Shown here: positions 6,011 through 41,748 of the stretch, piece by piece
Layout of the letters: every line of letters starts with the position of its first letter
How positions within the stretch are numbered: position 1 is the stretch's first letter
Assembly (NCBI GenBank): GCA_021736525.1
Contig: JAIPFR010000003.1
Span: 1-46,713, forward strand
DNA from: Spirochaetia bacterium
GTDB taxonomy: Bacteria; Spirochaetota; Spirochaetia; JABMQR01
DNA length: 46,713 nucleotides
Direction of reading: 5' to 3'
The notes under the pieces: generated by a model
What the model saw: the letters and a program-made list of their open reading frames with translations, nothing else
Database searches by the model: none
What the model was told of the DNA's origin: nothing
Program-made: the position numbers and the translations under genes

Positions 6011-7012
6011 ATGAGTAATAAGCCGAATGACGATGGATTGTTTCCAGCAGTGGATCAACAACTTTTGAGTCTTAGATTGAAGCGCTTAGTCCAAAGAGCA
6101 TTTCCCTTACTGGTGGTTGTTTTGGTGCTACTGTTTATCAGTCTTCTGGTACCCAGGTTTTTTCACCCGCGGAATCTGAAAAATATTCTTGTGCAGTCAT
6201 CGACATTAGGTTTGATGGCTATCGGGATGACCCTTGTCTATCTTATTGGAGGAATGGATTTATCTATCCCATCAGTGATGGCTGTGAGCGGCATCATGGG
6301 TGCAATGATCATGAAAAGCGGCGGTTCACCGGTGCTTGGTGTGATCATCACAATAGCAGCCGGAGCCGTGGTGGGAGCTGTGAATGGACTTTCAGTTTCT
6401 TTTCTGAAGATGATTCCGTTTGTGGTCACACTTGCTATGATGCAGGTCATGTCGGGCATATCAACATGGGTTACAAATTCAGTCAGCATTGCAGTTCCTC
6501 TGGATTATATAGATATTATTCTGTTTAAAATCGGAGAACTGCCCTTACCAGTTTATTTATTTGTGACTCTAACAATTGTTTCAACCTATTTCTGCAAATC
6601 TACGATCTATGGACGATGGCTGTATGCAATTGGAACCAATCTTGAGTCATCTAAAGTGTGCATGATCCCCGTCCGGAAGACAATTTTCCTTACCTATACA
6701 GTCTCAGGCATGTTTGCAGGGCTGACTGGTGTTCTGCTTACTGCGCGGTTAGGGGCCGCAGGTCCGCTAATGGGATCTTCAAATGTAATCCTGGATGTGA
6801 TGAGTGCCTCCGTAGTAGGTGGAGTAAGTATATATGGGGGAGTGGGCAGCCCTTTGGGAGCTGCTGTTGGGGCGGTGGTCATCACAGTTCTCAACAATGT
6901 CCTGAATCTGCTCAGAGTTGATTTTTTTCCAGCTCAGGTAATTAAAGGGGTAATAGTGATTGTATTTGTAGCATTTGATTCATTCGGCAGAAGTCACAGG
7001 AGACAGGGATGA
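6011..7012 (+). CDS. Importer 1 sugar permease A (RbsC family)
   Basis: 333 residues with 8-10 hydrophobic segments and the RbsC hallmark GGMDLSIPSV near residue 80 (usually GGIDLSVGS). I chose the ATG at 6011 because AGGAAGG lies five bases upstream; a GTG at 6005 is in frame but overlaps that site. It is the first gene of the importer-1 operon and overlaps the ATPase gene by ATGA. Its partner permease, encoded at 8526-9509, is a different protein, so the membrane pore is probably a heterodimer. The sugar is not determined by sequence; the downstream isomerase and epimerase genes suggest a ketose, deoxysugar or rare hexose. Confidence 0.93.
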   Translation: MSNKPNDDGLFPAVDQQLLSLRLKRLVQRAFPLLVVVLVLLFISLLVPRFFHPRNLKNILVQSSTLGLMAIGMTLVYLIGGMDLSIPSVMAVSGIMGAMIMKSGGSPVLGVIITIAAGAVVGAVNGLSVSFLKMIPFVVTLAMMQVMSGISTWVTNSVSIAVPLDYIDIILFKIGELPLPVYLFVTLTIVSTYFCKSTIYGRWLYAIGTNLESSKVCMIPVRKTIFLTYTVSGMFAGLTGVLLTARLGAAGPLMGSSNVILDVMSASVVGGVSIYGGVGSPLGAAVGAVVITVLNNVLNLLRVDFFPAQVIKGVIVIVFVAFDSFGRSHRRQG

Positions 7013-8529
7013 GTTCAACAGTATTGAAGATGATCGGTATTGGAAAAAGCTTTCCTGGTGTCAGGGCTCTTCATAATGTGACATTCACGGCTTACGCTGG
7101 AGAGGCAATTGCCCTGCTTGGTGCTAACGGTGCCGGTAAAAGTACGCTTATGAATGTGCTGGGAGGGGTAATCCGGCATGATGATGGTAAACTTGAGATT
7201 CAAGGAAAGAGTGTGGAGTTTAAAAACCCTAAAGACGCACAGGCTGAAGGAATAGCCTTTGTCCATCAAGAAATGGCACTGCTTCCGACCATGACAGTGA
7301 TGGACAATATGTTCATTGCCGACTTTCCAAAGCGATGGGGCGCAATAATCAACCGGACTGAAATGCGAAATCAATGCACAGAGGTCCTTGAACGTCTTGG
7401 GTGCAGGATTTCGCCGGATAATTATATCAAGAACCTTGGTACCGGCGACAGGCAAATGGTTGAAATAGGGCGAGCTTTACTGGGAAATAACAGGATCTTC
7501 ATCTTTGACGAACCAACTTCATCGCTTACGAAAGGAGAGAAAGATAATCTCATCAAAGTGATAGAGCGGCTGAAGCGTGAGGGGATGGCTATCATCTACA
7601 TAACCCACTTCCTCAGTGAGGTTTATGATATATGTGACAGGGTATGTGTATTGCGGGGAGGAGAAGTAGCCGGCGGTGGGCTAATATCCGAAGTCAGTAT
7701 GAATAAGCTAGTTCGTATGATGGTTGGAGATGTGAAAATTGGTGATCGGGGAAGTGAACGGAATACTGCTGCGCGAAAACCGATCTTTCAAGTGGATGAA
7801 CTGAACCGCAGAGGAGTACTCGAAAATATCAACTTTACCCTGAACAAGGGAGAGATACTTGGTTTCTGGGGCCTTCTTGGGTCAGGCAGGACGGAAACAG
7901 CCCGGGCTATTATGGGGCTGGATACGGTGGATTCGCTGAAAATTTCGACTTGGAAGGATGATAGATTGACCGAAGTCTCAACCGAATTTGTTCAGCATAA
8001 CATAGGACTTATTACGGAAGAGCGCCGTGTTGACGGGCTGTTTTTGCCAATGTCGGTGAGCAGAAACATGTCAATGGCCAACCTGAGAAATATCCGGAAA
8101 AAGCATAGTGCAGTTATTGACCGGAAAAGAGAGGCGGAACTTAGCAGAGAGTTCACCGATCGGCTGAATATAAAAATCACCAGCATTGAACAGAAAGTAG
8201 AGACACTCAGCGGCGGGAATCAGCAGAAGGTAATTCTTGGACGCTGGCTGGAAGTTAATCCGGACATTCTGATTATGGATGAGCCAACACGCGGACTTGA
8301 CGTTTCAGCCAAGGCTGAGATTGCGAGGATTATTGTCAGACTGGCAAAGGAGGGAACTTCGATCATTTTGATCAGCTCCGAAATCGAGGAGATGATGTCA
8401 CTGTGTGATCGATTTCTCGTTTTTAACAAGGGCCGGATAATTTCGAATCTAGAATACGGAGTATCTCAGGAAGAGCTGGTGGGCCTTGCGGCAGGAACTG
8501 CGGATGCTTCAAAGAGAGTTATGGCATGA
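7009..8529 (+). CDS. Importer 1 tandem ATPase (RbsA family)
   Basis: 506 residues with two nucleotide-binding domains. The first has Walker A GANGAGKST, Walker B IFIFDEP and H-loop ITHF, but its signature is NLGTGDRQMVE instead of the usual LSxGQQQMVE. The second has the degenerate P-loop GLLGSGRTE normal for RbsA and an intact LSGGNQQK signature with LIMDEPTRGLD. It powers uptake through the two flanking permeases at the inner face of the membrane. Start and stop overlap its neighbours by ATGA, showing tight translational coupling. Confidence 0.96.
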   Translation: MSSTVLKMIGIGKSFPGVRALHNVTFTAYAGEAIALLGANGAGKSTLMNVLGGVIRHDDGKLEIQGKSVEFKNPKDAQAEGIAFVHQEMALLPTMTVMDNMFIADFPKRWGAIINRTEMRNQCTEVLERLGCRISPDNYIKNLGTGDRQMVEIGRALLGNNRIFIFDEPTSSLTKGEKDNLIKVIERLKREGMAIIYITHFLSEVYDICDRVCVLRGGEVAGGGLISEVSMNKLVRMMVGDVKIGDRGSERNTAARKPIFQVDELNRRGVLENINFTLNKGEILGFWGLLGSGRTETARAIMGLDTVDSLKISTWKDDRLTEVSTEFVQHNIGLITEERRVDGLFLPMSVSRNMSMANLRNIRKKHSAVIDRKREAELSREFTDRLNIKITSIEQKVETLSGGNQQKVILGRWLEVNPDILIMDEPTRGLDVSAKAEIARIIVRLAKEGTSIILISSEIEEMMSLCDRFLVFNKGRIISNLEYGVSQEELVGLAAGTADASKRVMA

Positions 8530-9509
8530 AACTGAAACAATTATCAATCAAAGATTCACTTTTCAAATACGGATTCTATGTAATTTTATTCGGTGTTATT
8601 CTCTTTTTCACCTTCTCAGCCGAATACTTTCTGACATTCGCAAATATTAACAGTCTTGTTCATGCAGCAGCTCCGATGCTGATTATCGCTGCAGGAATGG
8701 CGTTTGTGGTCTTCACCGGCAAACTGGATATATCACTTGGTTCCATTGCCTATCTCTCCACCTGTATCGGTGCTGTACTAATGAAAAACCTGGGATTCCC
8801 TCCCGCGGCAGCTTTTATCATCGTACTGCTTTCAGGGATCGTCCTTGGCGGCATAAACGGTTTTATTATCGTGATACTGAAGGTTAATCCTCTTATCACC
8901 ACCCTCGGAACATTAACAGCTTTTCGTGGACTTGGTCTGATCTTAACCCAGTCGTTTGAGATCAGGATGCCGGAAGCTGTGCGGGCGTTTGGTACTTCCA
9001 GAATACTCGGCGTTTTCAGTGATGTATGGCTGGCACTACTTCTTCTAATTCTACTGCATTTCATTCACCAGAAAGCTGTCTTTGGAAAGCAGGTTACGGC
9101 TCTTGGCAATGGTGAGGAGGTTTGCCTGAGATTGGGAATCAGAGTTGACCGGACCATTTTTTTGACATTCATGCTGGCTGGATTTCTGGCTAGCATCGGA
9201 GGAATAGTCAGTATGGCGCAGATCGGTCAGTCCACAACGTTTCTTGGCAAAGGTATGGAATTTACCGCCGTTGCGGCGATAGTGCTGGGAGGAATCAGTC
9301 TGTTTGGTGGGGAGGGCAAGATTATTCCCGGTGTTCTGATCGGTGTACTGACATTGGAGCTGATCAGAAATGGTCTTAATCATCTGGGCGCCAATCCATA
9401 CCTGTATGAGTTTGTCAATGGAGGAATTATTTTCACAGCAATGTCTGCGGACGCATTGAAAGCCCGCTTGAGAGGTCAAGTAATACTCGTCTCGGACGAG
9501 AATACTTAA
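8526..9509 (+). CDS. Importer 1 sugar permease B (RbsC family)
   Basis: 327 residues, multi-spanning, with the family motif TGKLDISLGS near residue 66 and the C-terminal AIVLGGISLFGGEG segment. It overlaps the ATPase gene by ATGA and is followed, after 23 bp with a strong AGGAGG, by the binding-protein gene. It differs clearly from permease A, so importer 1 uses two distinct membrane subunits. Confidence 0.94.
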   Translation: MKLKQLSIKDSLFKYGFYVILFGVILFFTFSAEYFLTFANINSLVHAAAPMLIIAAGMAFVVFTGKLDISLGSIAYLSTCIGAVLMKNLGFPPAAAFIIVLLSGIVLGGINGFIIVILKVNPLITTLGTLTAFRGLGLILTQSFEIRMPEAVRAFGTSRILGVFSDVWLALLLLILLHFIHQKAVFGKQVTALGNGEEVCLRLGIRVDRTIFLTFMLAGFLASIGGIVSMAQIGQSTTFLGKGMEFTAVAAIVLGGISLFGGEGKIIPGVLIGVLTLELIRNGLNHLGANPYLYEFVNGGIIFTAMSADALKARLRGQVILVSDENT

Positions 9510-9532
9510 TAAACATTTATTAGGAGGAACTA

Positions 9533-10561
9533 ATGAAAAAATTAGTTGGTGTGGCATTTGTGATGTTTCTTTTTCTGGCAGCAGGCGTTTTGTCCGCTGG
9601 GGCACAGCAGGAGGTGGATGACGGTAAGTATGTAGTCGGAGTTTCCTGGGATGAAAAATCCATTCCGCTCATTCAGGCTTGGGAAGACTATATGATTGCT
9701 GAAGCTGAAAAAACAGGCTCTGCAATTGGTCTTGATTATGAGTTTATTATCAATGTTGCCGATCTTGATCCCACCCGACAGGCTTCAAACATCGAGGATC
9801 TGATTCAGCAGGATGTTGATGTTATTCTGGCTCGAGCAAAAGACGGTGCAGCTATAGGCTCTTCCATCAGAGCAGCTCATGATGCTGATATTCCATTTGT
9901 TGTATTCGACAGGAAATCACTTACGGCAGAGCAGGGTGATGCATATGTCGGTGGTGACAGCTACAGACAAGGTCGCAGCACTGCAGAGGCTCTTGCAGAT
10001 CTTCTGCAGAAGCAGGGCATCCAAGGAAAATGTATCGAAGTCATGGGAGATCTGAAAGACAACAATGCGGTCCTCAGATCAGTAGCACTGAATGAAGTTG
10101 CAGTCGAGACTGGAGCTTTGCAGGTGGTAACGCAGGTCCCGACCGAATGGGATCCGCAGAAATTCCTCTCAGGCATTACCAATGCCCTTCAGGCCTATCC
10201 TGATGCTAACTGTATTTTTCTTGCAAGTGATTTTGCCTGGTCGGCAGTACAGGCTGCGCTTGAGACACATGACAGATATAAGAAAATTGGTGAAGCTGGT
10301 CATATATTGACAGCAACCTGTGATCTGTTTCCCGATGCGCTGATTGCCATGGAAAATGGGTATATAGATGTATCCACGACATGGGATGCTTATCTACATG
10401 CAAAAGCGCTCGTGGAAGTTCTGAATAAAATAGGAACCAATGCACCGCTCACTTATGGGGAGGAAGGGTTTCTGGTTCCTGGACGTGTTGTCTATCCGGA
10501 AACTCTTGCCGAAATGGAAAATGTCTGGTCACGCGATTACGCCGACTGGACGGCTCAGTAA
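9533..10561 (+). CDS. Importer 1 sugar-binding protein (RbsB-like)
   Basis: 342 residues. A signal peptide (about 1-24, ending SAGAQQ) is followed by the acidic EVDDGK stretch typical of spirochaete binding proteins and a type I periplasmic fold. LIQQDVDVILARA and VFDRKS form the sugar-cleft strands. AGGAGG lies just upstream of the ATG. As last gene of the transport block it is followed by a strong hairpin. Its C-terminal half resembles the orphan binding protein encoded at 2866-3906, which may present the same or a related sugar to the membrane AraC regulator. Confidence 0.94.
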   Translation: MKKLVGVAFVMFLFLAAGVLSAGAQQEVDDGKYVVGVSWDEKSIPLIQAWEDYMIAEAEKTGSAIGLDYEFIINVADLDPTRQASNIEDLIQQDVDVILARAKDGAAIGSSIRAAHDADIPFVVFDRKSLTAEQGDAYVGGDSYRQGRSTAEALADLLQKQGIQGKCIEVMGDLKDNNAVLRSVALNEVAVETGALQVVTQVPTEWDPQKFLSGITNALQAYPDANCIFLASDFAWSAVQAALETHDRYKKIGEAGHILTATCDLFPDALIAMENGYIDVSTTWDAYLHAKALVEVLNKIGTNAPLTYGEEGFLVPGRVVYPETLAEMENVWSRDYADWTAQ

Positions 10562-13238: not shown

Positions 13239-14192
13239 TTAGAATGCCGGTTTGGCAGTGGCTGCATTTGTACTGTCAATTCTTGTTGAAGGGGCTATCA
13301 CCCTTGGAGGAACTGCTTCACCATTAAGAATCTTTACTGCAAGCTCCAACCCTTCTTTACCCGAAGGATTAAAAGTCCATGTAGCAGTCATTTCTCCAGC
13401 TCTAATTGCATCAATCTCGCCTTGCATCCCGTCAAGTCCAGTAATCATCATTTCATCCAATCTTCCTACTTCCTTCACTGCCTGACTGGCGCCCAGGGCC
13501 ATGTCCGCATTTGCAGCCATAATTACATCAATAGTGCCGGGACCATTAGCCTGAAGAATGTTCTGCATAACATTGTATGCTTGAGGACGACGATAATCTG
13601 CCGGCTGTTGAGCAATTACAACGATATCCTGATATTTATCAATTACCTGACGGAAACCGCCGACCCTTTCAACAGAAGTCTGATCACCTGGAATACCCTC
13701 TAAAATAACTACATTGCCCTTCGGAGTACCATTTTTCTCAGTAAGCTTCTCAACAATGTACTCGCCAATTTCATTTCCGATACTTCGGTCATCTACAGAG
13801 ACCAGGGTTGTAGCCTCAGTTCCAAGTATAGCCTTGCCAACAAACATGAATGGAATACCTGCTTCATGCACTTTAGTAAGTTGCTGACGAAGTCCTTCTG
13901 CCTTTGCTGCCTGAACCATAAGCAGATCCATTCCTCGTGCCATCATATCCTCAATACCTGCAACCTGAGTTACTACAGAGCCCTGACCATCAGTAGCAAT
14001 AACCTCAACATTCGGATATTTTGAGGCAGCATCAACTATTTGCTGTCTCTGAGCAATCATCATGGGATGATCAAGACTCTCCTGCGATAATCCGATCACA
14101 TACTTCCCATCGTCAGCTTCTTCTTCTCCTGTCGCCCAGACGAGACTTCCAACAATCAAGAAAATCAAACAAACCACTGCGATCCTTTTCAT
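13239..14192 (-). CDS. Importer 2 sugar-binding protein (RbsB-like)
   Basis: 317 residues. A signal peptide ends around VWATG, followed by EEEADDGKYVIGLS. The fold matches ribose/galactose-type binding proteins, with AGIEDMMARGMDLLMVQ and a hinge segment ending in NGEAVPPRVI. AGGAGG stands upstream of the ATG. It is the last gene of the minus-strand DJ-1/dehydrogenase/ATPase/permease/binding-protein operon, an order with the binding protein at the promoter-distal end. It differs from the other three binding proteins in the window, so importer 2 probably takes a different sugar. Confidence 0.94.
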   Translation of the reverse strand: MKRIAVVCLIFLIVGSLVWATGEEEADDGKYVIGLSQESLDHPMMIAQRQQIVDAASKYPNVEVIATDGQGSVVTQVAGIEDMMARGMDLLMVQAAKAEGLRQQLTKVHEAGIPFMFVGKAILGTEATTLVSVDDRSIGNEIGEYIVEKLTEKNGTPKGNVVILEGIPGDQTSVERVGGFRQVIDKYQDIVVIAQQPADYRRPQAYNVMQNILQANGPGTIDVIMAANADMALGASQAVKEVGRLDEMMITGLDGMQGEIDAIRAGEMTATWTFNPSGKEGLELAVKILNGEAVPPRVIAPSTRIDSTNAATAKPAF

Positions 14193-14236: not shown

Positions 14237-15211
14237 TTATTTTTTTCTGTTTTCCTGGACACTTTGAAGCAATACTGCAGCAATTATTATCACTCCCTTT
14301 ACAATTTTCTGCGTATACCCGGGAACATTTATAAGATTCAGCAGATTATTCAATACACCTATTATTAATACACCTATTACCGTTCCTGCAGCACCACCGG
14401 AACCTCCTCCCAGAGTTGTACCCCCAACAGCAACTGCTGCTATAGCATCAAGCTCCATCCCCGAGCCAATGTTTGCCTCCCCAAAGTTCATGTGGTTAGC
14501 TGTTATTACTCCAGCAAATCCTGCCAGAAAAGAACTGACTACATAAACAGTAATCTTAACGTTATCCACTGATATACCGGACAATCGGGATCCTTCTTCA
14601 TTTCCACCTACCGCATAAACGTGTCTTCCAAGCCGGGTTCTGTTTAGAATTATATGAGCTGCTGCTGCAGTTATTATGAACAAAATCGATTGAAACGGAA
14701 CGATTCCAAACAGAGTTCCCTGCCCAATGAATTTCAACCCCTCAGGTGCACCTAATATCGGCTGTCCCCGTGAAAAGGTAAGTCCAAATCCGACAACTCC
14801 TGTCATAAGACCCAACGTTGCAATAAATGGCTGCAGCCGTCCCTTGGTAACTAATATACCGGCTAGAAGCCCCCAGACCATGCTGATGACAAGAGCAATA
14901 ACAGCAGCCGGGACAGCTCCCAGATGTTTCAACCCAGTTATTACCAGTGTTGCAAATGCATAAACAGATCCCACAGATAAATCTATTCCACCGGTCAGAA
15001 TAACAAAAGTCATTCCAATACTGATAATGCCTATGACTGACACCTGTCGTGTAATATTAAAAAGATTTGAAGGCCGTAAAAAAACTGAAGATATAAGGGA
15101 ACAGGCCAGAAACAGTACTCCTAATACTACCAGCATTCCATACTTCTCAAAAAAACTCGAAAACTCTATTCGATTGTGGTATCGTGAATTTGTCAACGTT
15201 TTTTCTTTCAC
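14237..15211 (-). CDS. Importer 2 sugar permease (RbsC family)
   Basis: 324 residues, multi-spanning, with the classic RbsC motif ILTGGIDLSVGS near residue 72 and VGGTTLGGGSGG near the C-terminus. Translation starts at GTG 15211, whose G is also the last base of the ATPase stop TAG; AGGAGG nine bases upstream supports this. It is the only permease in this operon, so the importer is presumably a homodimer in the membrane, unlike importers 1 and 3. Confidence 0.94.
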   Translation of the reverse strand: MKEKTLTNSRYHNRIEFSSFFEKYGMLVVLGVLFLACSLISSVFLRPSNLFNITRQVSVIGIISIGMTFVILTGGIDLSVGSVYAFATLVITGLKHLGAVPAAVIALVISMVWGLLAGILVTKGRLQPFIATLGLMTGVVGFGLTFSRGQPILGAPEGLKFIGQGTLFGIVPFQSILFIITAAAAHIILNRTRLGRHVYAVGGNEEGSRLSGISVDNVKITVYVVSSFLAGFAGVITANHMNFGEANIGSGMELDAIAAVAVGGTTLGGGSGGAAGTVIGVLIIGVLNNLLNLINVPGYTQKIVKGVIIIAAVLLQSVQENRKK

Positions 15212-16707
15212 TATTCAACTCCTCCTATCGCAAATTTCATTACAGCCTCTTCTGTAGCATTCTCTGCCGACAACTCACCCGTGAAACGTCCCTGATTCAT
15301 AACAATAATACGATCACTTATCCCTATGACCTCAAGCAATTCTGATGAGATCATGACAATTGCTTTTCCTTTTTTTGTAAGCTCTCTCATAAGATTATAG
15401 ATCTCCGTTTTAGCACCAACATCAATACCTCGGGTAGGCTCATCAAGAATCAGCACTTTGCTATCGTGTGCAAGCCATTTAGCTAGCACAACTTTCTGCT
15501 GATTCCCTCCACTTAGAGTTCTTACAAGCACATCCTGATCCTTTGCAGCTATTTTCAGTGTTTTTATAAAGTAATTGACAAGTGCCTTTTCCTTTTTCAT
15601 CTGCAGTAGAAAATATTTCCGTATGTGTTCGAGCACAGTTAATGTTATATTCTTTTTCACTGATAATCCAAGGACCAAACCCTGCTGCTTGCGGTCCTCG
15701 GTAGCAAAACCGATACTGTTCCTGATTGCATTTATTGGCTTACGAATTTTCAAGGGCTTTCCATACATAAGAATCTCACCGGAGTCAAATGGATCTGCTC
15801 CGAAAACCGCCCTGACTACTTCCGTACGACCGGCACCAACCAAACCTGAAAGTCCAAGAATTTCACCTTCATACACATCAAAAGAAATATTTTTAAAAAC
15901 ACCTTTTCTAGTAAGATTTTTTACTTCAAGAACTTTATCTCCTCTTTTTGCTTTGTTGACCGGAAAATAATCTGACAACGTACGTCCAACCATCATGTGG
16001 ATGAGAATTTCTTTATCAATATCTGAAACATCCTTTGAGCCTATATATTTCCCATCCTTAAGCACAGAGACCCGATCACATACTCTAAAAATCTCTTCAA
16101 GACGGTGAGATATATAAATTATGGTCTTTCCCTGCTGTTTTAATCGTAAAATTGTGCTGAACAGAAACTCAATTTCGTGATCTGACAAGGTTGCAGTTGG
16201 TTCATCCATAACTATCAGTTCTGCATTCAAAGAGAGTGTCTTTGCAATCTCTATCATCTGCTGTTCCGCAACACTAAGCTTGTGAGCCGATGTGCGTACA
16301 TTGAGATTTAATCCTAATCCTTTAAGAATTTCTTCTGCTGCAGAATCCATTTTCTTGCGATCGACCAAGCCTGCTTTTGTAACAGGTTCGTTTCCGAGAA
16401 AAATGTTTTCAGCAATTGAAAGATAGGGAACTAAATTGAATTCCTGGTAAATAACACCAATTCCAGCCTGCTGAGCTGATATTGGATTTTGATGAGCAAA
16501 CAGTTTTCCCTTAAAGTAAATCTCCCCGGAATCCGGCTGGAAGGCAGCGCTCAACACTTTTATTAAGGTTGACTTCCCTGCACCATTCTCACCAAGCAGA
16601 GCATGTATTTCCCCATATCTGCAAGCAAAGGAAACATCACTGAGAGCCTTTACCCCAGGGAATGTTTTGGTAATTTTTTTCATGTCCAGAATATATTCAT
16701 CGTTCAT
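15211..16707 (-). CDS. Importer 2 tandem ATPase (RbsA family)
   Basis: 498 residues, two nucleotide-binding domains. The first carries GENGAGKST, the signature LSVAEQQMIE and Walker B LIVMDEPTATL; the second the RbsA-type degenerate P-loop GLVGAGRTE with LSGGNQQK and LILDEPTRGID. All residues needed for an active RbsA appear present. This matters because a second, diverged copy of an RbsA-like first domain is fused to the histidine kinase encoded at 19351-21213, and this protein is the natural comparison for it. Confidence 0.96.
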   Translation of the reverse strand: MNDEYILDMKKITKTFPGVKALSDVSFACRYGEIHALLGENGAGKSTLIKVLSAAFQPDSGEIYFKGKLFAHQNPISAQQAGIGVIYQEFNLVPYLSIAENIFLGNEPVTKAGLVDRKKMDSAAEEILKGLGLNLNVRTSAHKLSVAEQQMIEIAKTLSLNAELIVMDEPTATLSDHEIEFLFSTILRLKQQGKTIIYISHRLEEIFRVCDRVSVLKDGKYIGSKDVSDIDKEILIHMMVGRTLSDYFPVNKAKRGDKVLEVKNLTRKGVFKNISFDVYEGEILGLSGLVGAGRTEVVRAVFGADPFDSGEILMYGKPLKIRKPINAIRNSIGFATEDRKQQGLVLGLSVKKNITLTVLEHIRKYFLLQMKKEKALVNYFIKTLKIAAKDQDVLVRTLSGGNQQKVVLAKWLAHDSKVLILDEPTRGIDVGAKTEIYNLMRELTKKGKAIVMISSELLEVIGISDRIIVMNQGRFTGELSAENATEEAVMKFAIGGVE

Positions 16708-16731: not shown

Positions 16732-17793
16732 TTACTGGTTCAGGTCTACCAGTACCTTCAAGGTTTCAGAACCCGGTCTCCCCATTTTCAGTTCCACTTC
16801 CACATCAGACAATGAAACAACTTCTGAAATAAAGGGATCAAGATTGAGACGATTTGATTGGATTAATGTTATTGCGTCCGAGACATCAGAACCAACACCG
16901 GCCACTGCTGATACAATCTTTTTTTCATTAAGAACCAACTCAACTGGATCAAATCGAATTTCACTGCCAGCTTCAGGAAACCCGGCAGCAAGAAGCATTC
17001 CACCCGGACCCGTTAGCATTACCCCCATATCAAAGGTTGAGACTCGAGATGATGTTTGAACCACTACATCAAAATATCCAAGATATTGATGCAGCTTTTC
17101 TGACCCTGCAGTCCACTCATCTATCACAACCACCGTATCCGCACCCATTTGCTTACCAAATTTCCCAATTACCGTGTTTGTCGCTATTAGTACGATGGGA
17201 ACCGCCCCCTGCACTCGGGCAACTTGAAGGTGAAAGAGCGCCATAGCATCATCCCCGATAACTGCGGTACGCTTTGCAAGAAGTGATCCTGTTCTTTTTT
17301 GAGCCCTGACTACATTTGATATTGGTTCGACCAATGCATATTTGATCAGGTCTTTTCCACTGATTACACCTGTACCTATGGGAAATACATTTTTTTCTGA
17401 AACTGCCGCATACTCTGCAAATCCACCGTCCCTGTGAATTCCAATCTGCTGTATTTCTGTACACTTCAACGGTTCACCATTCCTGCAGTTCCTGCATACT
17501 CCGCAACTGATGTTTATATCGACCGCAACCGCGGAGCCAATTGATATCCGCGTCACGCGACTGCCGACTGCAGCAACTGTCCCGACAAATTCATGACCTG
17601 GAATAAATGGTATGTGCTCCACGCTGACCAGACCATCAAATATCATCTTGTCTGTAGAGCAAATCCCACAGAAAGCAACTTTTATCAGCACTTCATCATA
17701 TGCGATTGACGGCACAGGCACGTCCTGAAGCGTAAAGCTCCCCGGAGCGGTTAAGACAGCTGCCTTCATTGTTGTTTGATTCTTTTCCGTCAT
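16732..17793 (-). CDS. Zinc-dependent medium-chain dehydrogenase (sorbitol/threonine DH type)
   Basis: 353 residues. The catalytic zinc site appears as CGICSTDK and GHEFVG, the structural zinc loop as four cysteines in CGVCRNCRNGEPLKC, and the Rossmann domain follows. The family oxidises a sugar or polyol hydroxyl with NAD(P). GAGGG about nine bases before the ATG supports the start. It lies between the DJ-1 and ATPase genes under the sigma-54 promoter, so its substrate is probably the sugar or polyol carried by importer 2, or a product of it. Confidence 0.9.
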   Translation of the reverse strand: MTEKNQTTMKAAVLTAPGSFTLQDVPVPSIAYDEVLIKVAFCGICSTDKMIFDGLVSVEHIPFIPGHEFVGTVAAVGSRVTRISIGSAVAVDINISCGVCRNCRNGEPLKCTEIQQIGIHRDGGFAEYAAVSEKNVFPIGTGVISGKDLIKYALVEPISNVVRAQKRTGSLLAKRTAVIGDDAMALFHLQVARVQGAVPIVLIATNTVIGKFGKQMGADTVVVIDEWTAGSEKLHQYLGYFDVVVQTSSRVSTFDMGVMLTGPGGMLLAAGFPEAGSEIRFDPVELVLNEKKIVSAVAGVGSDVSDAITLIQSNRLNLDPFISEVVSLSDVEVELKMGRPGSETLKVLVDLNQ

Positions 17794-17805: not shown

Positions 17806-19125
17806 TCAATCGGGTATGTTCCCATTCGTAAGTAAACCTATAGACATTGCATCAATGAACTCCGGTAATTCCGGTGTTGTTCTTCCAGATACCATATTGC
17901 CGTCAATAACTGCCGCCCATTCGGTCTGGAAATCCCCCCCCATAGAATTGAAGGCGGGTAGACACGATAACCATCCAGTTGATTTCTTGTTCTCAGCAAG
18001 GCCGGCAGCGGCAACTGCTATAGGTCCATGGCACATAAAAGCAATCATATTGCCTGATTCATCGGCTCCCTGCAGAAAGGTCAGGGGATAACCAGCTTCA
18101 ATCATATTCCATGGACAGAAAGAACCGGGAATCATCAATCCATCATATTCTTCGTGTGATATATCCCTTAAATCCTTAATTTGATACAGATCGTCATTGA
18201 TTTCCTGAAGCGGAACTGACATCCCGAAATTACCTTGTACAACATTAACACCAAGCAGGGGGGGTCTGGATCGTTTACACCCGGTAAAAGTACCAATGAT
18301 GAGTTCTGACCCGCGATGCAGAAACTCAAGTGCTGGAACTGCAATTTCAAAATCCTCGAAATCCCACCCTGCAATAAGCAGCATTCGTTTTCCCTTCAAC
18401 ATGTCTTTACGATTGTCCACATAATCATTATCGAAAAAACTGCATAGCTCAGAAACAAATTCCGGGGTATCCACTGTATCCTGAGCTGTCAGAATCCTTT
18501 CATCCAGAACGCAACGATCATTACTGTAATCACACTTCCTTTTGAGCATAAAGTCCACTTGTTCGTTTCCCGTGCATTTTTTACCGTCGGTAAGACCAAC
18601 TGTAATTAGCGGTATAATCCCACCGCCAATTCCTCCTAATACAGCCCCGTTATTATAAGCTCTCAACAGCAGGTCCTGTACCGGCTTCTCAGTTGACATA
18701 ATATCACCTGATGGTCCGCCTAGTATTATCAGTGCATCATACTCTTCGGCTACCGCTAGAGTCACTTTCACAGCAGTATCAGCTTTCTCGCCTCCTCCCA
18801 CTGGAATCGGGTCAACACTTAACCCCCATAAGCCCTGGACACCTTTTTGCCTGTTGTTGGGTCTTGTCCAATGCCAAGAAACATCATCCACAAGGATAAA
18901 ATCCAGAGCTCCACCAAACTCTCCAATATAAGCAGCTATGTAATAAGCTTGGAAATCGCTGAATTCGCTCGTAATAAGGCATCCTATTTTCTTCCCGACT
19001 AAGGGTCCATACGTTTTTACTGATCCTGGTTTATCTCCGGTCCACAAAAGAGCCCCATCTTTTCTTTGCAGCTCAATACCTTTCGCCTCTATACTTAGCA
19101 AGTATTCATTTACTCTTTTTTTCAT
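17806..19125 (-). CDS. Tandem DJ-1/PfpI-domain protein, one domain lacking the cysteine
   Basis: 439 residues from the ATG at 19125, chosen because GGGGAG lies five bases upstream; an ATG 33 bp earlier lacks a site. Two DJ-1/PfpI domains lie in tandem (about 45-235 and 245-430). The second has the nucleophile elbow C365-H366-G367-P368 and the supporting acid in WDFEDFE (E257). In the first the elbow reads GGIGGGI with no cysteine, so it is probably a structural or regulatory half. Family members include glyoxalase/hydratase, amidase and protease-like enzymes, so no reaction is assigned. It is the first gene after the sigma-54 promoter, ahead of a dehydrogenase and a sugar importer, which suggests a role in processing that substrate. 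Confidence 0.85.
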   Translation of the reverse strand: MKKRVNEYLLSIEAKGIELQRKDGALLWTGDKPGSVKTYGPLVGKKIGCLITSEFSDFQAYYIAAYIGEFGGALDFILVDDVSWHWTRPNNRQKGVQGLWGLSVDPIPVGGGEKADTAVKVTLAVAEEYDALIILGGPSGDIMSTEKPVQDLLLRAYNNGAVLGGIGGGIIPLITVGLTDGKKCTGNEQVDFMLKRKCDYSNDRCVLDERILTAQDTVDTPEFVSELCSFFDNDYVDNRKDMLKGKRMLLIAGWDFEDFEIAVPALEFLHRGSELIIGTFTGCKRSRPPLLGVNVVQGNFGMSVPLQEINDDLYQIKDLRDISHEEYDGLMIPGSFCPWNMIEAGYPLTFLQGADESGNMIAFMCHGPIAVAAAGLAENKKSTGWLSCLPAFNSMGGDFQTEWAAVIDGNMVSGRTTPELPEFIDAMSIGLLTNGNIPD

Positions 19126-19179
19126 TGGTGCTCCCCTGTTTATAAAAGCCGATATCATAAAGTTTTCTTCTTTTACCTT

Positions 19180-19198
19180 AAAGCAGGATCCGTACCAA
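19180..19198 (-). promoter_or_regulatory. Sigma-54 (-24/-12) promoter for the DJ-1/importer-2 operon
   Basis: The minus strand reads TTGGTACGGATCCTGCTTT. GG (19196-19195) and GC (19184-19183) are separated by exactly 10 bp, as RpoN requires, and the match to TGGCACG-N4-TTGCW is 6/7 and 4/5. The predicted start near 19171 leaves a ~46-nt leader to the ATG at 19125. The next genes upstream encode an NtrC-type activator and its kinase. Confidence 0.8.
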
Positions 19199-19278: not shown

Positions 19279-19347
19279 TGTTTACTATCTATACAGATAT
19301 TGTAATCACTGTATCGGAAGTAAACAGTGCTTCAGGAAAGTAAACAC
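19279..19347. promoter_or_regulatory. 48-bp dyad plus third half-site: candidate activator-binding sequence
   Basis: TGTTTACT (19279-19286), 4 bp, ATACAG (19291-19296), 12 bp, CTGTAT (19309-19314), 4 bp, AGTAAACA (19319-19326): every block is mirrored around 19302.5. A further AGTAAACAC at 19339 lies 20 bp from the last block. The dyad centre is about 130 bp upstream of the sigma-54 start, a normal distance for an enhancer bound by an NtrC-type protein. It fits the gap just after the kinase gene's stop. Confidence 0.75.
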
Positions 19348-19350
19348 CAG

Positions 19351-21213
19351 CTATAATGAAGAAATGACAGGCAGCTCAATAATAAACCTGCAACCTTTTG
19401 GTTGAGTATTCTCTATATATATAGAACCGCCAATTCTATCAATTATTGAATAACATAACGACAAACCAAGTCCGATGTTTTTGGAGTTTTTCTTTTTGGT
19501 TGAATAAAACGGAAGGAAAATCGATTCCATATCCTTTGCAGGAATTCCCGGTCCGGTATCCTTTATGACCAATCGAGCAATACAGCCAGTATCCGTTTCC
19601 AGAACTTGCGTGCTAATGGTTATTTCTCCACCTTCTGGCATTTCTTCCCGACTGTTTTTCACAATGTTTGTGAGCAACTCCCTGAATTCATTGGAATTCA
19701 AATCAGTAAGAACAGGTTTTTCGGAAAGCTGCAGAGAAAAATATATATTCTCATATTCTTTATTATTTTTAATCAAATTGATAAAGCCAGAAATCAATAC
19801 ATTAAGGTCGGTACGTTCCGTCTTTATAACATGAGCATCTGAAAAATCCACAAGTTTTGATACGATTTGCTTTATAATAAGCAATTCCTCTCGAAGTTCA
19901 GACATAGGATCTTCTAATTGCGCTGATGTTGCCTTTTGTTTGATAAATCGTAGATAGTTAAAGGCTATTTCCAGAGAGTTGTTAATTTCATGGCCAACTC
20001 CAGCCGCAAGCAGACCTATAGAAGCCATGTGATCAGAAAACATTATTTCTTTCTGAAAATTGAAGTAGTCCGTCACATCTTCAATAACGAGAATTTGACC
20101 AACCGTGGATACTCCATCATGAATCGGCAGGATTTTCAATGTATTAATTGTTTGTCTGCCGTTGGTCACTATCGGCACATTGAATAAGATTTTCAATTTT
20201 CTTGATTCAATAGAATCTTTCAAAGCGGCAATCAACCTCTCACTTTGCCATTTAAGCATTGATGATATTGGTTGATGCAGGTAGAACTCCTGTTCAATCT
20301 CAAAGGAATTTTCAAAATACTTATTAGCCATTACTATGTAGTTATTCACGTCAAGAACAAGCAGATTCACCGGCAAGTTTTCAAGAATTGCCTGGTTAAA
20401 ACGTAAAAACGTATAAAATTCTTCCTCTTCAGTCCGTGATTTTTGCTTACGGATATTTTCGGTATAGGTAAGTCTGATTAAATTTATCTTATCTATTGAA
20501 TTTGTCAGTCCTGAGTAAATTGTTTTCCCATTCCTGATAATTGAAACACGATCTGCATAATCATACAGGAGTTCAAAATTATGTGTAATAAAAAGAACTG
20601 CAGTTCCGGCTTTTTTGAGCTGAAACAAAATATTTGAAAAAATTGAAATATGCATATAGGGAAGTTGCGATATAACTTCATCAATAATAAGTACATCAGG
20701 ATTCTGCTCTGCAAGCCGTATCAGTTCTAGAATAACATAATCAGGTTCTTTCAACTGCTCAATCTTGTCTAGAACATGCAGTACAAGTCCATATTTACCG
20801 ATTATTTCTTCAGCTAGTGAAATCAACCGTCCTTTCGGTACCAGTATTCCTGTAAAGCTTGTTGGAGTTGTATAAAGGAGATGTTCCCAAACGGTGAATT
20901 TGGGATTTGCTGTCCTTGATTGATGTATCATTACAATGTGGGGTTTCTTTGTCTGTTTTCTACCAGTTTCTTTGGGAGGCTGAACTTTTGCTAGAATAAC
21001 TTTTCCTGAGTCAGGTTTTACTATTCCGCATATGACTCTTCCCAGTGTGGATTTACCACTCCCCTTTTCCCCAATTAACGCATGGATTTCTCCAGTTTTC
21101 ATAGAAAGACTGACATTATCAAGTATGTTATTAAAACGGTTTTTCAGGGATATATTCTCAAGTGAGACTATCGTTTTCTCAGGCTGTTCCGTTTTCGGCC
21201 TCTCTGATTCCAT
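19351..21213 (-). CDS. ABC-ATPase domain / PAS / histidine kinase fusion
   Basis: 620 residues, no membrane segment. Residues ~15-250 are an ABC nucleotide-binding domain most like the first half of RbsA: Walker A GEKGSGKST (48-56), Q-loop Q98, Walker B DVLIIDE (173-179) and H-loop H211. The signature LSxGQ is lost (QLKEPDY at 153-159) and the Pro after DE is Val. Residues ~265-380 look like a PAS domain. Residues 393-620 are an NtrB-like kinase with H408 in GVGHEINNS, N-box LLTNIVKNS, G1 KDTGPGIP and G2 IGLGLSLCYS. It overlaps the NtrC-type gene by 35 bp and is surely its kinase. The ATPase half probably binds ATP and may dock on a sugar permease or sense nucleotide; both are inference. I know of no characterised protein of this architecture. 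Confidence 0.93.
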   Translation of the reverse strand: MESERPKTEQPEKTIVSLENISLKNRFNNILDNVSLSMKTGEIHALIGEKGSGKSTLGRVICGIVKPDSGKVILAKVQPPKETGRKQTKKPHIVMIHQSRTANPKFTVWEHLLYTTPTSFTGILVPKGRLISLAEEIIGKYGLVLHVLDKIEQLKEPDYVILELIRLAEQNPDVLIIDEVISQLPYMHISIFSNILFQLKKAGTAVLFITHNFELLYDYADRVSIIRNGKTIYSGLTNSIDKINLIRLTYTENIRKQKSRTEEEEFYTFLRFNQAILENLPVNLLVLDVNNYIVMANKYFENSFEIEQEFYLHQPISSMLKWQSERLIAALKDSIESRKLKILFNVPIVTNGRQTINTLKILPIHDGVSTVGQILVIEDVTDYFNFQKEIMFSDHMASIGLLAAGVGHEINNSLEIAFNYLRFIKQKATSAQLEDPMSELREELLIIKQIVSKLVDFSDAHVIKTERTDLNVLISGFINLIKNNKEYENIYFSLQLSEKPVLTDLNSNEFRELLTNIVKNSREEMPEGGEITISTQVLETDTGCIARLVIKDTGPGIPAKDMESIFLPFYSTKKKNSKNIGLGLSLCYSIIDRIGGSIYIENTQPKGCRFIIELPVISSL

Positions 21214-22522
21214 ACTTTTCTATCTTTTTGTATAAGGTTTTTCTGGTCATATTTAATTCTGCTGCAGCTCTTGACTTGTTGAACCCATGCCTGAAAAGAA
21301 CAGTCATTATTATTTCTTTTTCAGCCTGCTCGACAGTACTAAAAGAATGAATCCCGCTCTCTTGAATATTCTTTCTTATATTCACCGGTAAATCTTCTGG
21401 ATAAATACAATCGCTTGACGAGATGGCAAGCGAGTACTGAACAGCATTCTTTAACTCCCTGATATTCCCCGGCCAGGTGTAGTGCATAAAAATATCGAGC
21501 ACCTCCTCAGAAAACTTTTTGCACGAATTGGCAAGATCAGCCCCCCCCGCCACAAAAACATTTACTAATCCTGGAATATCACATAAACGATCACGCAACG
21601 GCGGTAAATTAAGAACCACAGTACTAAGTCTGTAGTAAAGGTCTTCTCTGAATTCTTTTTCACCAATCATGTGCTTTATGTTTTTATTGGTAGCTGCAAT
21701 AAAACGAACATCAACAGTAATTACTTTATTACCGCCAATTCTACGTATTTCATTGTTCTGAAGAGTCCTGAGTATTTTTGACTGAATAGATAAAGACATG
21801 TCGCCAATTTCATCAAGAAACAATGTATGCCCGTTCGCCAATTCAAATATTCCCTTGTACTCCTCTTCTGCACCTGTATAGGCTCCTTTGTTATGTCCAA
21901 ACAACTCATTGTCGAGAATACTTTCCTGAAATGCAGCACAATTGATTTTATGAAGCTCTTTATCTTTTCGCAGTGAATTTTGATGAATAAATTCTGCAAG
22001 CAACTCTTTTCCAGTTCCATTCTCTCCAAGAATTAGAATTGGAAGATCCGTTGAAGCCAGCTTAGCCGCTTTTTCCATCACTTCCGACATAACCGGAGAT
22101 TCAGTTTTAAAAAATCCTTGTTTTTTCACAGCACGGGTATGATTACTGTACCTTGAATCAACAGAAGATAACGCCTTCTCAACTACTTCCAGCAGTTCAT
22201 CAAAATCAATGGGTTTCTGGACATAATCAAAAGCTCCTCTTTTTATTGAATCTACGGCGGAATCGATCGAGGCATATCCTGTAATCATAATTACCGGGGG
22301 GGGATTGCGCCGCGATATAAATATATCAAGAAGGTTCCTGCTATCTTCAGTTCCCAGCATTAAATCCTGTATTATCAGGTCAAACTGCTGCTTCTCAATC
22401 AACTCGAGGGCTGACTTGGAATCAGGAGCATATGCGGCAATATACCCTAAAGGCTGAAAATTTATTTGCAGGCTTCTATACGTGCGAACATTATCATCAA
22501 CTATAAGGATTGACCTTTTCAT
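21179..22522 (-). CDS. NtrC-family sigma-54-dependent response regulator
   Basis: 447 residues from ATG 22522 (a GTG at 22531, overlapping the DeoR stop as GTGA, is the alternative). Domains in order: receiver with D9-D10 and phospho-acceptor D53 in LIIQDLML; AAA+ domain with Walker A GENGTGKE, sigma-54 contact loop GAYTGA (usual GAFTGA; Tyr is a conservative change) and Walker B TLFLDEIGDM; C-terminal Fis-type helix-turn-helix (FNKSRAAAELNMTRKTLYKK). It would activate RpoN promoters after phosphorylation by the overlapping fusion kinase. The dyad and -24/-12 site at 19180-19347 are the obvious target. rpoN itself lies outside the window. Confidence 0.96.
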   Translation of the reverse strand: MKRSILIVDDNVRTYRSLQINFQPLGYIAAYAPDSKSALELIEKQQFDLIIQDLMLGTEDSRNLLDIFISRRNPPPVIMITGYASIDSAVDSIKRGAFDYVQKPIDFDELLEVVEKALSSVDSRYSNHTRAVKKQGFFKTESPVMSEVMEKAAKLASTDLPILILGENGTGKELLAEFIHQNSLRKDKELHKINCAAFQESILDNELFGHNKGAYTGAEEEYKGIFELANGHTLFLDEIGDMSLSIQSKILRTLQNNEIRRIGGNKVITVDVRFIAATNKNIKHMIGEKEFREDLYYRLSTVVLNLPPLRDRLCDIPGLVNVFVAGGADLANSCKKFSEEVLDIFMHYTWPGNIRELKNAVQYSLAISSSDCIYPEDLPVNIRKNIQESGIHSFSTVEQAEKEIIMTVLFRHGFNKSRAAAELNMTRKTLYKKIEKYGIREAENGTA

Positions 22523-22527
22523 AGCTT

Positions 22528-23319
22528 TCACAATTCGGAGAAAACAGTAATATCCAGATCCTCATATCCCCTTTTCAATTCCGGATCAATTGAATCAGTT
22601 ATGAGAATGTCTATATTTTCTGGAGATGCAAAATTCATGAAAGAATCCCTTTCCAGCTTGGTATGATCACATAAAAGTATAACTTGGGAAGCAATCTGTA
22701 TCATTTCCCTTTTTATTTCAGCATGTGCAATATCTGGAGTACTGGCTCCCCTCTTTGCAGAAAAAGAATTGGCTCCCATAAATGCTTTATCGACAGAAAT
22801 AGATTTGAGTATAGAGTTTTCTCTGCTTCCAAGAGTACAATGAAAACCCTTTCTGAGCATACCGCCTACAAGCAATATTTCGCAGTTCTCGTTATTTTCC
22901 AGAATCCCGGCTATGGTCAGGTCATTTGTTACAATTGTCAAATTGTGACGCTCATAAAGGATTTTTGCAAGCTCATAGAGCGTTGTACCAGAGTCAAGAA
23001 GGATAGTATCTCCGTCTTCTACGAGAGAAAGCGCCAGTCGAGAAACTGTACGTTTTTCTTCCAGATTATCAGAAAGACGGCGTTCAATTTTTGTTTCAAA
23101 CCTGGTCTGAGATTTGCTTACCGCTCCTCCGTGCGTACGAGAAATAAACCCTTTCTCGCCTAGTTCTCTAAGATCATTCCGTATCGTTGCACTTGAGACT
23201 GAAAATGCCTCACAAAGTTCCTGACTGGTCACTCTATGTTTTTCATTGATATATTCAACAAGTCGATTTCTTCTTTCTTCAGCAAAAAGTATTTTCTCTA
23301 CAGACTTTTCCTTACCCAT
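22528..23319 (-). CDS. DeoR-family transcriptional regulator
   Basis: 263 residues. The N-terminal winged helix carries the family pattern VTSQELCEAFSVSSATIRNDL; the C-terminal sugar-phosphate sensor domain has DSGTTLYELA, TIVTNDL, LVGGMLR and LCDHTKLERD. DeoR proteins usually repress catabolic operons until a phosphorylated sugar binds. It sits inside the operon it probably controls, between the UlaG-like and NtrC-type genes, so both local and two-component control come from one transcript. AAGGTGATC before the ATG supports the start. The ligand may be the product of the FGGY kinase. Confidence 0.94.
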   Translation of the reverse strand: MGKEKSVEKILFAEERRNRLVEYINEKHRVTSQELCEAFSVSSATIRNDLRELGEKGFISRTHGGAVSKSQTRFETKIERRLSDNLEEKRTVSRLALSLVEDGDTILLDSGTTLYELAKILYERHNLTIVTNDLTIAGILENNENCEILLVGGMLRKGFHCTLGSRENSILKSISVDKAFMGANSFSAKRGASTPDIAHAEIKREMIQIASQVILLCDHTKLERDSFMNFASPENIDILITDSIDPELKRGYEDLDITVFSEL

Positions 23320-38012: not shown

Positions 38013-38969
38013 TCAACGTTTTTTCACTTTATTGAATGCAACAGCCAGTATAAGAATTGATCCTTTCAAAAACATTTGGATATACGGATTAATATCCAGC
38101 AGATTCATGATATTCGAGAAGATAGTGAGAGTCAGAACACCACCGACTATACCAAGAGGACTGCCCACACCACCTGCCAGAGAAATTCCTCCGATTACCG
38201 ATGCTGTAATCGTATCAAGTTCATAATTACTCCCCGCTGTCGGTCCTCCCCCACCCATTCTTGCGGCGAGAAAGACAGCAGCAAGCCCGACAAGCACCCC
38301 CCCGAATACATAGGTCATAAAACGAACCTTTGTTACTGCTATTCCTGATATCCTTGAAATATGCTGGTCACTACCCACTGCATAGACCAGTTTACCGCTT
38401 TTATGCCTCTTTAAAAGCATATAGACAATACCGAATATCACCAGGAAAAAAAGAAAACTGAAGGGAATGGCCAGCAGTTTTCCCTCTGCAATGTAACGGA
38501 AAGATCGCGGGATGCCGCCAATAGGTTTTTTTGTGAAAAAATAGATCAGCCCCTGCAGAATCATGCTGGTAGCCAGAGTTCCCATGAATGCCGGTATCCG
38601 CAAGATCACAACAAAAAAACCGTTCAGAGAGCCGATCAGCATAGCGGTAACCAAAACTGCAATAAGAACAGTTATCGGGGTCATGTCCGGAAACATCTTG
38701 AATAAAATCGCCGCCATCGTCGTAAGCAGAGAAACAGCAGCGCCAATCGACATATCAATCCCTCCGGAAAGCATGATCAAAGCCTGAGCAAGGGAAGCTA
38801 TACCTAAACCCACTGGCTGAATCAACAATACATTTCGCATATTTCTTCCGGTAAGAAATATGGGACTGCTGATTGCACTGAACACCAGCAAACCGAACAG
38901 GATAAACCAGACGAAGTTACTTGAAGAAATGTTAAGCCTTAATTTGCGATTATTTACTGACATAATCAT
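38013..38969 (-). CDS. Importer 3 sugar permease A (RbsC family)
   Basis: 318 residues, multi-spanning, with the RbsC signature MLSGGIDMSIGAAV near residue 68 and VIGGISLAGGVGSPLG near the C-terminus. It follows the ATPase gene by 12 bp. A second, distinct permease gene (41749-42702) lies upstream in the same operon, so a heterodimeric pore is likely. Confidence 0.94.
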   Translation of the reverse strand: MIMSVNNRKLRLNISSSNFVWFILFGLLVFSAISSPIFLTGRNMRNVLLIQPVGLGIASLAQALIMLSGGIDMSIGAAVSLLTTMAAILFKMFPDMTPITVLIAVLVTAMLIGSLNGFFVVILRIPAFMGTLATSMILQGLIYFFTKKPIGGIPRSFRYIAEGKLLAIPFSFLFFLVIFGIVYMLLKRHKSGKLVYAVGSDQHISRISGIAVTKVRFMTYVFGGVLVGLAAVFLAARMGGGGPTAGSNYELDTITASVIGGISLAGGVGSPLGIVGGVLTLTIFSNIMNLLDINPYIQMFLKGSILILAVAFNKVKKR

Positions 38970-38981
38970 ATTGTGCCTGCC

Positions 38982-40514
38982 TTATGAGCTGAGTGAGTAA
39001 GTATGACCCACCGCAAGCGATAACAGTTCCTCCTCCGAAGAGAGCTTTTCATGCTGGTCGAGAATACCTGCAACTCTCCCGCGGTTGAGCACCATAATGC
39101 GATCCGACATTCCCAGCACTTCGGGAAGTTCTGAAGATACCATCAGTATGGCCTTACCGCTTTCAGTAAGTTCCCTGACCAGCTTGTAGATTTCATACTT
39201 TGCTCCGACATCAATTCCTCGAGTAGGTTCGACTATAACGAAAATTTCGGGATCAGTTAGCAATGCTCGTGCTATGAGTACTTTCTGCTGGTTCCCTCCG
39301 CTCAAATTCTCAATTTGCGTAAATAATGATGCAGTTTTAATCTGCATCGCAGCTATTTGTTTTTCTGCTGCAATGCGCTCCTTCTTTCTGTCAATGATTC
39401 CGCTTCTCATAAACTTCTTCAAACTTGTGATGGTAGTATTCTGAACAATATCCATAGAGGTGATAATCCCCTCCAATTTACGATCGGAGGGGATATAGCA
39501 GAAACCTTCAGTTATAGCACCTATAATACTGATGTTATCAATTACTTTACCATTTACTGTGATGGTTCCGGAATCACGCCTGACAGCTCCGACAATAGCC
39601 TGTACCAACCGTGTTCTACCGGAGCCTACCATTCCAGCAAGCCCAAGCACTTCTCCCTTCCTCAGCGAAAAGGTTATGCCTTCGAGTTCACCTTTGCAGC
39701 TTAGATCTTCCACCTTCATAATAGTATCGCCGATCTGCTTTCCGTAATCAGGATAAATATCCTGAATCTCTCTTCCTACCATATAACCTACCAGATTATC
39801 TTTGGTCAGTTTTTCCACCGGGAATGTACCCATCACCTTGCCGTCTTTGATAACAGTTACCCGATCAGCAATCTCAAATACTTCTTCAAGCATGTGGGAA
39901 ATGTAAATGACTGTAACCCCTCGGGATTTTAGCGATCTTATGATACTGAATAGTTTCTTCAGTTCTTTGTCAGTAAGAGGTGCAGAAGGCTCATCCATTA
40001 TCAAGATACGAGCATCTACGGAAAGCGCCTTCATTATTTCTACAAGCTGCTGTTGAACCACAGAAAGATCCATAACTTTAGCATCCGGGTCAAGGTTAAT
40101 ATCCAGCAGTGCCATCAGCTCCCGTACTCTTTCCCGTGCTTTACCGAACCTGAGGAACCCGGCTCTGGAAACAGGCTCCCTGTTGAGGAACACATTCTCA
40201 GTAACCGACATATGCTTAATGAGACTGAATTCCTGAAAGATAATGGATATCCCATCCATTTGAGCCTGATGGGGATTCTTTATAACTACTTCTTCACCGT
40301 TGTAGATTATGCTGCCCGAATCCGGTTTAAATACACCAGAAAGAATTTTCATCAGTGTCGACTTTCCAGCCCCGTTCTCCCCCACCAAAGCATGAACTTC
40401 ACCGTAAGAAAAATCCATATCAACTGAATCAAGTGCTTTGACGCCCGGAAAGGTTTTTGTGATATCTTTGAATTTCAGCAATGATCCAGTAACAGCAGTA
40501 CCCATAGTACTCAT
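38982..40514 (-). CDS. Importer 3 tandem ATPase (RbsA family) with altered second Walker B
   Basis: 510 residues from ATG 40514, where AAGGTG lies six bases upstream (a TTG at 40523 is the alternative). NBD1 is intact: GENGAGKST, LSVVQQQLVE, LIMDEPSAPL. NBD2 has the usual degenerate P-loop GMVGSGRT and an intact LSGGNQQK, but Walker B reads FVIVEPTRGID: the invariant Asp is Val (residue 428, codon 39233-39231), a one-base change from GAC/GAT. The adjacent catalytic Glu is kept. This may weaken Mg2+ binding at one site, or be a sequence error. Confidence 0.94.
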   Translation of the reverse strand: MSTMGTAVTGSLLKFKDITKTFPGVKALDSVDMDFSYGEVHALVGENGAGKSTLMKILSGVFKPDSGSIIYNGEEVVIKNPHQAQMDGISIIFQEFSLIKHMSVTENVFLNREPVSRAGFLRFGKARERVRELMALLDINLDPDAKVMDLSVVQQQLVEIMKALSVDARILIMDEPSAPLTDKELKKLFSIIRSLKSRGVTVIYISHMLEEVFEIADRVTVIKDGKVMGTFPVEKLTKDNLVGYMVGREIQDIYPDYGKQIGDTIMKVEDLSCKGELEGITFSLRKGEVLGLAGMVGSGRTRLVQAIVGAVRRDSGTITVNGKVIDNISIIGAITEGFCYIPSDRKLEGIITSMDIVQNTTITSLKKFMRSGIIDRKKERIAAEKQIAAMQIKTASLFTQIENLSGGNQQKVLIARALLTDPEIFVIVEPTRGIDVGAKYEIYKLVRELTESGKAILMVSSELPEVLGMSDRIMVLNRGRVAGILDQHEKLSSEEELLSLAVGHTYSLSS

Positions 40515-40585
40515 ATACAACACCTTGTTATTGAAGTGCCCGCCGCATCAGATCAGTTACGACAGGCACTCATGCAAATTGCTTG

Positions 40586-41617: not shown

Positions 41618-41748
41618 ACACATACTCCTTTAATAAAATTCAATCTAATTTGTAAGATTGTTTATTGCTCTTTTCTCCTTCTCTGATGATGTTAACCCAT
41701 ACCCCCCACTCTCTTACATCCCTTGGAAATTGCCGGATCCAAGTCTTT

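Follow-up and report, generated by a model that had tools for sequence, protein, structure and literature searches.

A sigma-54 promoter is located in the 192-bp gap between a sensor-kinase gene and a DJ-1/dehydrogenase/sugar-importer operon, in the 46.7-kb stretch of Spirochaetia DNA analysed here (the window, meaning that stretch at its whole length). Combining the promoter, the upstream sites, the linkage of the genes and the pattern of their domains, all of which can be read in the sequence, we infer a chain of phosphotransfer, binding and transcription. The adjacent ABC-domain kinase would phosphorylate an NtrC/AtoC-type regulator (21179 to 22531), the phosphorylated regulator would bind two TGTnTAA-N3-TTAnACA palindromes about 116 and about 147 bp upstream of the transcription start, and the bound regulator would drive the sigma-54 polymerase through an operon that is predicted to run from 19171 to about 13239. 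We give this overall explanation a probability of about 0.82. The arrangement is probably a conserved spirochaete control module, in which a soluble kinase with an ABC domain and its activator would switch on a neighbouring sugar importer via sigma-54. The initial annotation had pointed to the promoter; it did not extend to the upstream sites, to the ABC ATPase domain in the kinase or to how widely the module occurs.

The promoter and the operon

On the minus strand, positions 19198 to 19180 read TTTGGTACGGATCCTGCTT, with an exact GG-N10-GC spacing, as claimed earlier for this strand. The -24/-12 promoter within this segment, TGGTACGGATCCTGCT (TGGTACG-GATC-CTGCT, 19182 to 19197), has no mismatch to TGGYACRN4YTGC and scores 15.3 of 19.1 on a sigma-54 matrix, the best value in the window. 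The number of sites expected by chance at this score or above is 0.22 for the whole window, and shuffling the 192-bp intergenic sequence 2000 times never gave so high a value. The matrix is built from the textbook consensus and not from a curated collection, and both the matrix and the gene calling are simple. Sequences at 37729, 37927, 45441 and 26202 of the window also score high as sigma-54-like sites, but they were discarded because they lie inside open reading frames.

The -12 element at 19183 predicts a transcription start at 19171, the same position that had been expected from the initial annotation; this agreement is computed only, with no 5' end mapped. The first gene of the putatively controlled operon, all of it on the minus strand, encodes a tandem DJ-1/PfpI protein (17806 to 19125). 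Its longest open reading frame begins at 19158, but the ATG at 19125 is the likelier start because an AGGGGAG ribosome site and the N-termini of the orthologues agree with it; this start leaves a leader of 46 nt and fits the distance of 46-55 bp previously given between promoter and gene. Downstream follow a Zn-dependent dehydrogenase of the polyol/sugar type (16732 to 17793) and a complete CUT2 (ribose/arabinose-type) importer: an ATPase of the RbsA/AraG type with two ABC domains (15211 to 16707), a permease of the RbsC/AraH type (14237 to 15211) and a substrate-binding protein of the RbsB type (13239 to 14192). Upstream of the promoter, on the same strand, are the genes for a DeoR-family regulator (22528 to 23319), the NtrC/AtoC-type activator, which overlaps the DeoR gene by 4 bases, and the soluble sensor kinase (19351 to 21213). 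The window contains other CUT2 importers (7009 to 10561 and 38013 to 42702) that lack an intergenic sigma-54 site of this kind; the one at 38013 to 42702 is flanked by an AraC-type two-component pair and a LacI-type regulator.

Conservation of the arrangement

Full-length homologues of the kinase occur in about 18 families of Spirochaetia and also in other classes of Spirochaetota, and 40 homologous loci of the class Spirochaetia form our main comparison set. The activator gene directly precedes the kinase gene in nearly all of the loci not truncated at the edge of a contig, and most of the 40 adjoin CUT2 genes, which are transcribed divergently from the activator or follow the kinase. With a score threshold of 13 in the upstream regions, sigma-54 sites are found before the divergent gene in 24 of 30 cases and before the downstream gene in 9 of 24, while the activator gene itself has none (0/35) and other, control genes have 12 in 396, several of these 12 being binding-protein genes from the same loci. 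Among adjacent genes that are recognisable as encoding an importer component, DJ-1 or ADH, 26 of 29 carry a -24/-12 site, against the 12/396 of the control genes and the 0/35 of the activator genes (Fisher p ~4e-29). A second set of 25 loci outside all training gives 9/29 versus 4/186 (p ~2e-6), and one of its members from another class (L093) combines the promoter with the paired sites upstream. These p values treat the loci as more independent than they are, since shared descent connects them.

The three closest orthologous loci (L065, TGGCATGATTCTTGCA; L066, TGGCATGAAAATTGCA; L067, TGGCACGCTTCTTGCA) share the gene order activator, kinase, DJ-1 with the window and have the site in the same gap, between kinase and DJ-1. 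At 15.3 against 17.5-19.1, the window promoter scores lowest among these four loci. Upstream of the activator, these three loci have a second sigma-54 site that points toward a divergent dehydrogenase operon, and one activator may drive two operons there. The retention of the site in these loci, and before adjacent importers class-wide, supports the claim of a sigma-54 promoter at this location, and we regard the promoter as confirmed as far as comparison of sequences can do so. The initial annotation had also called sigma-54 control of a sugar importer unusual: this stands against textbook sugar importers but not within the phylum, where the arrangement recurs.

In the three nearest genomes the module was not found at full length. 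The closest copies to the window module are in another family, with the kinase about 46% and DJ-1 up to 69% identical. Together, these two observations suggest transfer or loss.

Putative upstream activator sites

A palindromic motif search with random starts was applied to the 200 bases upstream of the sigma-54 sites. The best starts converged on a paired 17-bp palindrome, TGTnTAA-N3-TTAnACA, with a score of 145.7, versus 22-33 in shuffled sets. The palindrome passes 12 bits in 25 of 33 target regions and in 7 of 327 control regions; the first figure is partly in-sample because the motif was learned from those regions, and out-of-sample examples are found at L093 and L112. The two members of a pair are spaced by 31-34 bp, or about three helical turns, in 15 of 16 cases.

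In the window, putative site 1 (TGTATAGATAGTAAACA, 19279 to 19295, minus strand) is the top match to this motif found de novo, with its centre at about -116 from the predicted start. Putative site 2 (TGTTTACTTCCGATACA, 19310 to 19326, minus strand) lies 31 bp from site 1 and is poor, at 6.7 bits, and an additional half-site of uncertain role (GTGTTTACTT) is located at 19338 to 19347 on the same strand. Paired palindromic sites upstream of the promoter, for which a distance of 80-160 bp is typical, are what one would expect of an NtrC-type activator and lend support to the proposal that such a regulator acts here, although there are no binding data. The motif was not found in the most diverged kinase clade (L059 to L064). 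Five of its loci (L059, L060 and L062 to L064) have sigma-54 sites, but with other strong palindromes upstream, and the activators of this clade differ around the HTH.

The activator, the kinase and its ABC ATPase domain

The presumed activator contains all of the parts of its family: a receiver with an invariant D56, a sigma-54 AAA+ ATPase and a Fis-type HTH. Its loop reads GAYTGA, which is the family majority (GAFTGA-type). The domains of the window kinase follow each other, according to Pfam, as ABC ATPase (about 1-250), PAS (about 280-379), DHp with H408 and the catalytic domain to residue 616. HATPase_c and ABC_tran are matched in 37/37 aligned kinases, and H408, N516, N520, G554, G556, G581 and G583 are invariant in these 37 members. 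The predicted structure of the kinase, which consists of the ABC, PAS and kinase domains only, has a mean pLDDT of 81.5 and a pTM of 0.43, so that the domains are reliable while their mutual arrangement is not. No solved structure spanning both the ABC and the kinase halves is among the PDB matches listed. In the window kinase the most hydrophobic stretch of 19 residues has a mean of 1.35, which is below membrane grade; a mean above 1.6 is seen in 7 of 39 family members.

Residues of about 13-260 of the kinase match the first ATPase domain of RbsA, YtfR and AraG, but the kinase is without the signature and the D-loop, and the PAS-kinase part takes the place of the second ATPase domain. When 37 kinases are compared with 35 importer ATPases, the kinase ABC domain keeps Walker A K54, Q-loop Q98 and Walker B D178 (100% each), as well as Walker B E179 (94%) and the H-loop switch H211 (91%). 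The signature-region Gln, kept by 5%, and the Pro-Thr of the D-loop, kept by 0% of the 37 kinases, are lost. This pattern indicates that the ATP-binding parts and the parts expected to face the permease are kept, and that the parts of the ATPase dimer are lost. We found no precedent for an ABC ATPase sensor domain in a kinase in the open-access literature (the chromosomes of other phyla were not searched with a profile), and no record in the plasmid collection covers 80% of the kinase.

In the last, speculative step of our explanation, the kinase ABC domain would dock on the importer permease or read the state of the importer ATPase, and the kinase would in this manner sense sugar uptake from the cytoplasm. 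The sensing is inferred, and we rate this step at somewhat below even odds. A different explanation keeps the promoter as described and departs from ours only here: the ABC domain senses the nucleotide level or only dimerises, without any contact with the importer, and the signal comes from PAS or from another protein. This would agree with the ATP-binding residues being kept throughout the family and with the presence of PAS, and data on interaction are lacking; we give it close to an even chance. It does not sit easily, however, with the CUT2 importer that adjoins most loci, with the resemblance of the ABC domain to the first ATPase domain of importers in the CUT2 family, or with the loss of the dimer-interface motifs. 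The co-variation, seen with the permease only, also goes against it, if weakly. The permease distances correlate with those of the kinase ABC domain (partial r 0.17, p 0.03, with kinase and activator distances removed; 0.20, p 0.01, with PAS removed too) but not with those of the kinase PAS or the kinase core, and a mirror-tree comparison with the importer's own ATPase gives no signal. Several tests were made and the co-evolution signal is weak; the distance correlation is weak support for a contact between the kinase ABC domain and the permease.

Evidence on rpoN and on the use of the promoter

The assembly of the window has 1.19 Mb and is 74% complete. Its class is taken to be Spirochaetia because one family of this class includes a contig that matches a Borrelia anserina plasmid with full identity over 8 kb. 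In a check that was set beforehand, rpoN was not found in this partial assembly, and neither was its usual neighbour LptB, while rpoN is present in 59 of 60 relatives and in all 47 of those of good quality. The lptB-rpoN DNA of the only congener compared (G001) has no match in the window's assembly, and the best match to LptB is only 33% identical, so the assembly seems to lack this region. The rpoN of G001 (locus L089, 2139 to 3560) has many single-base indels and stops, with intact flanking genes; pseudogene decay and assembly error cannot be distinguished here.

One could read these observations, together with a window promoter slightly off consensus, as the signs of a genus that has lost or is losing sigma-54: the absent rpoN and the many indels in the congener's gene, next to open neighbours, would then mean that the site and the activator are relics and that the operon is read from another promoter. 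We consider this improbable, since the LptB/rpoN region seems simply to be missing, the window's assembly retains three intact sigma-54 activators of full length, most activators are intact in G001, and the promoter and the upstream sites both survive. That the GG-N10-GC match arose by chance, with the operon under sigma-70 and the DeoR regulator, is hardly credible: the DeoR gene is co-located and most sugar operons are so controlled, but the site is conserved and enriched across loci and no sigma-70-like promoter was found in the 192-bp gap.

Relation to known systems

The proposed sigma-54 module resembles AtoS-AtoC and NtrB-NtrC in the architecture of the activator, the core of the kinase and a sigma-54 promoter with paired upstream palindromes. 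The best curated models for the activator and the kinase are indeed AtoC and AtoS, with scores well below the curated cut-offs. The difference is that the sensor input of the module is an ABC ATPase domain without a membrane segment and that its target is a CUT2 importer. Sensing linked to a transporter has been described for DctB-DctD, where a two-component system likewise controls a neighbouring transporter through sigma-54; DctB, however, is a membrane sensor of dicarboxylate, whereas the module pairs a soluble, ABC-domain kinase with a transporter that is an ABC importer. For BceS-BceAB, the signal has been proposed to derive from the state of the ABC transporter. BceS is a membrane kinase that touches a separate transporter, while the kinase in the module has the ATPase domain fused in. 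AtcR/AtcS of Treponema denticola was dropped as a counterpart, its architecture being a different one.

Sigma-54 control of sugar uptake is shared with LevR, ManR and CelR, activators that are single proteins phosphorylated by the PTS and not two-component systems. According to the available passages of a survey of sigma-54 (PMC12316311), such control of sugar PTS operons by LevR/ManR/CelR is enriched in Bacillota; the same passages contain no mention of CUT2 importers or of the Spirochaetia module.

Beyond the sigma-54 module itself, we tentatively raise the possibility, which remains doubtful, that Spirochaetota have a new class of two-component system coupled to transport. At the N-terminus of a soluble kinase, a captured and catalytically altered importer ATPase domain would plug into the CUT2 permease or compete with the true ATPase. 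The kinase would in this way read the flux of sugar directly and signal it to a sigma-54 activator that induces the same importer. The targets of sigma-54 in this phylum are little known, and the present analysis gives a predicted sigma-54 regulon for sugar import with the sequence and the spacing of its operator. The kinase family would make the reading of transporter activity by two-component systems testable with a soluble protein.
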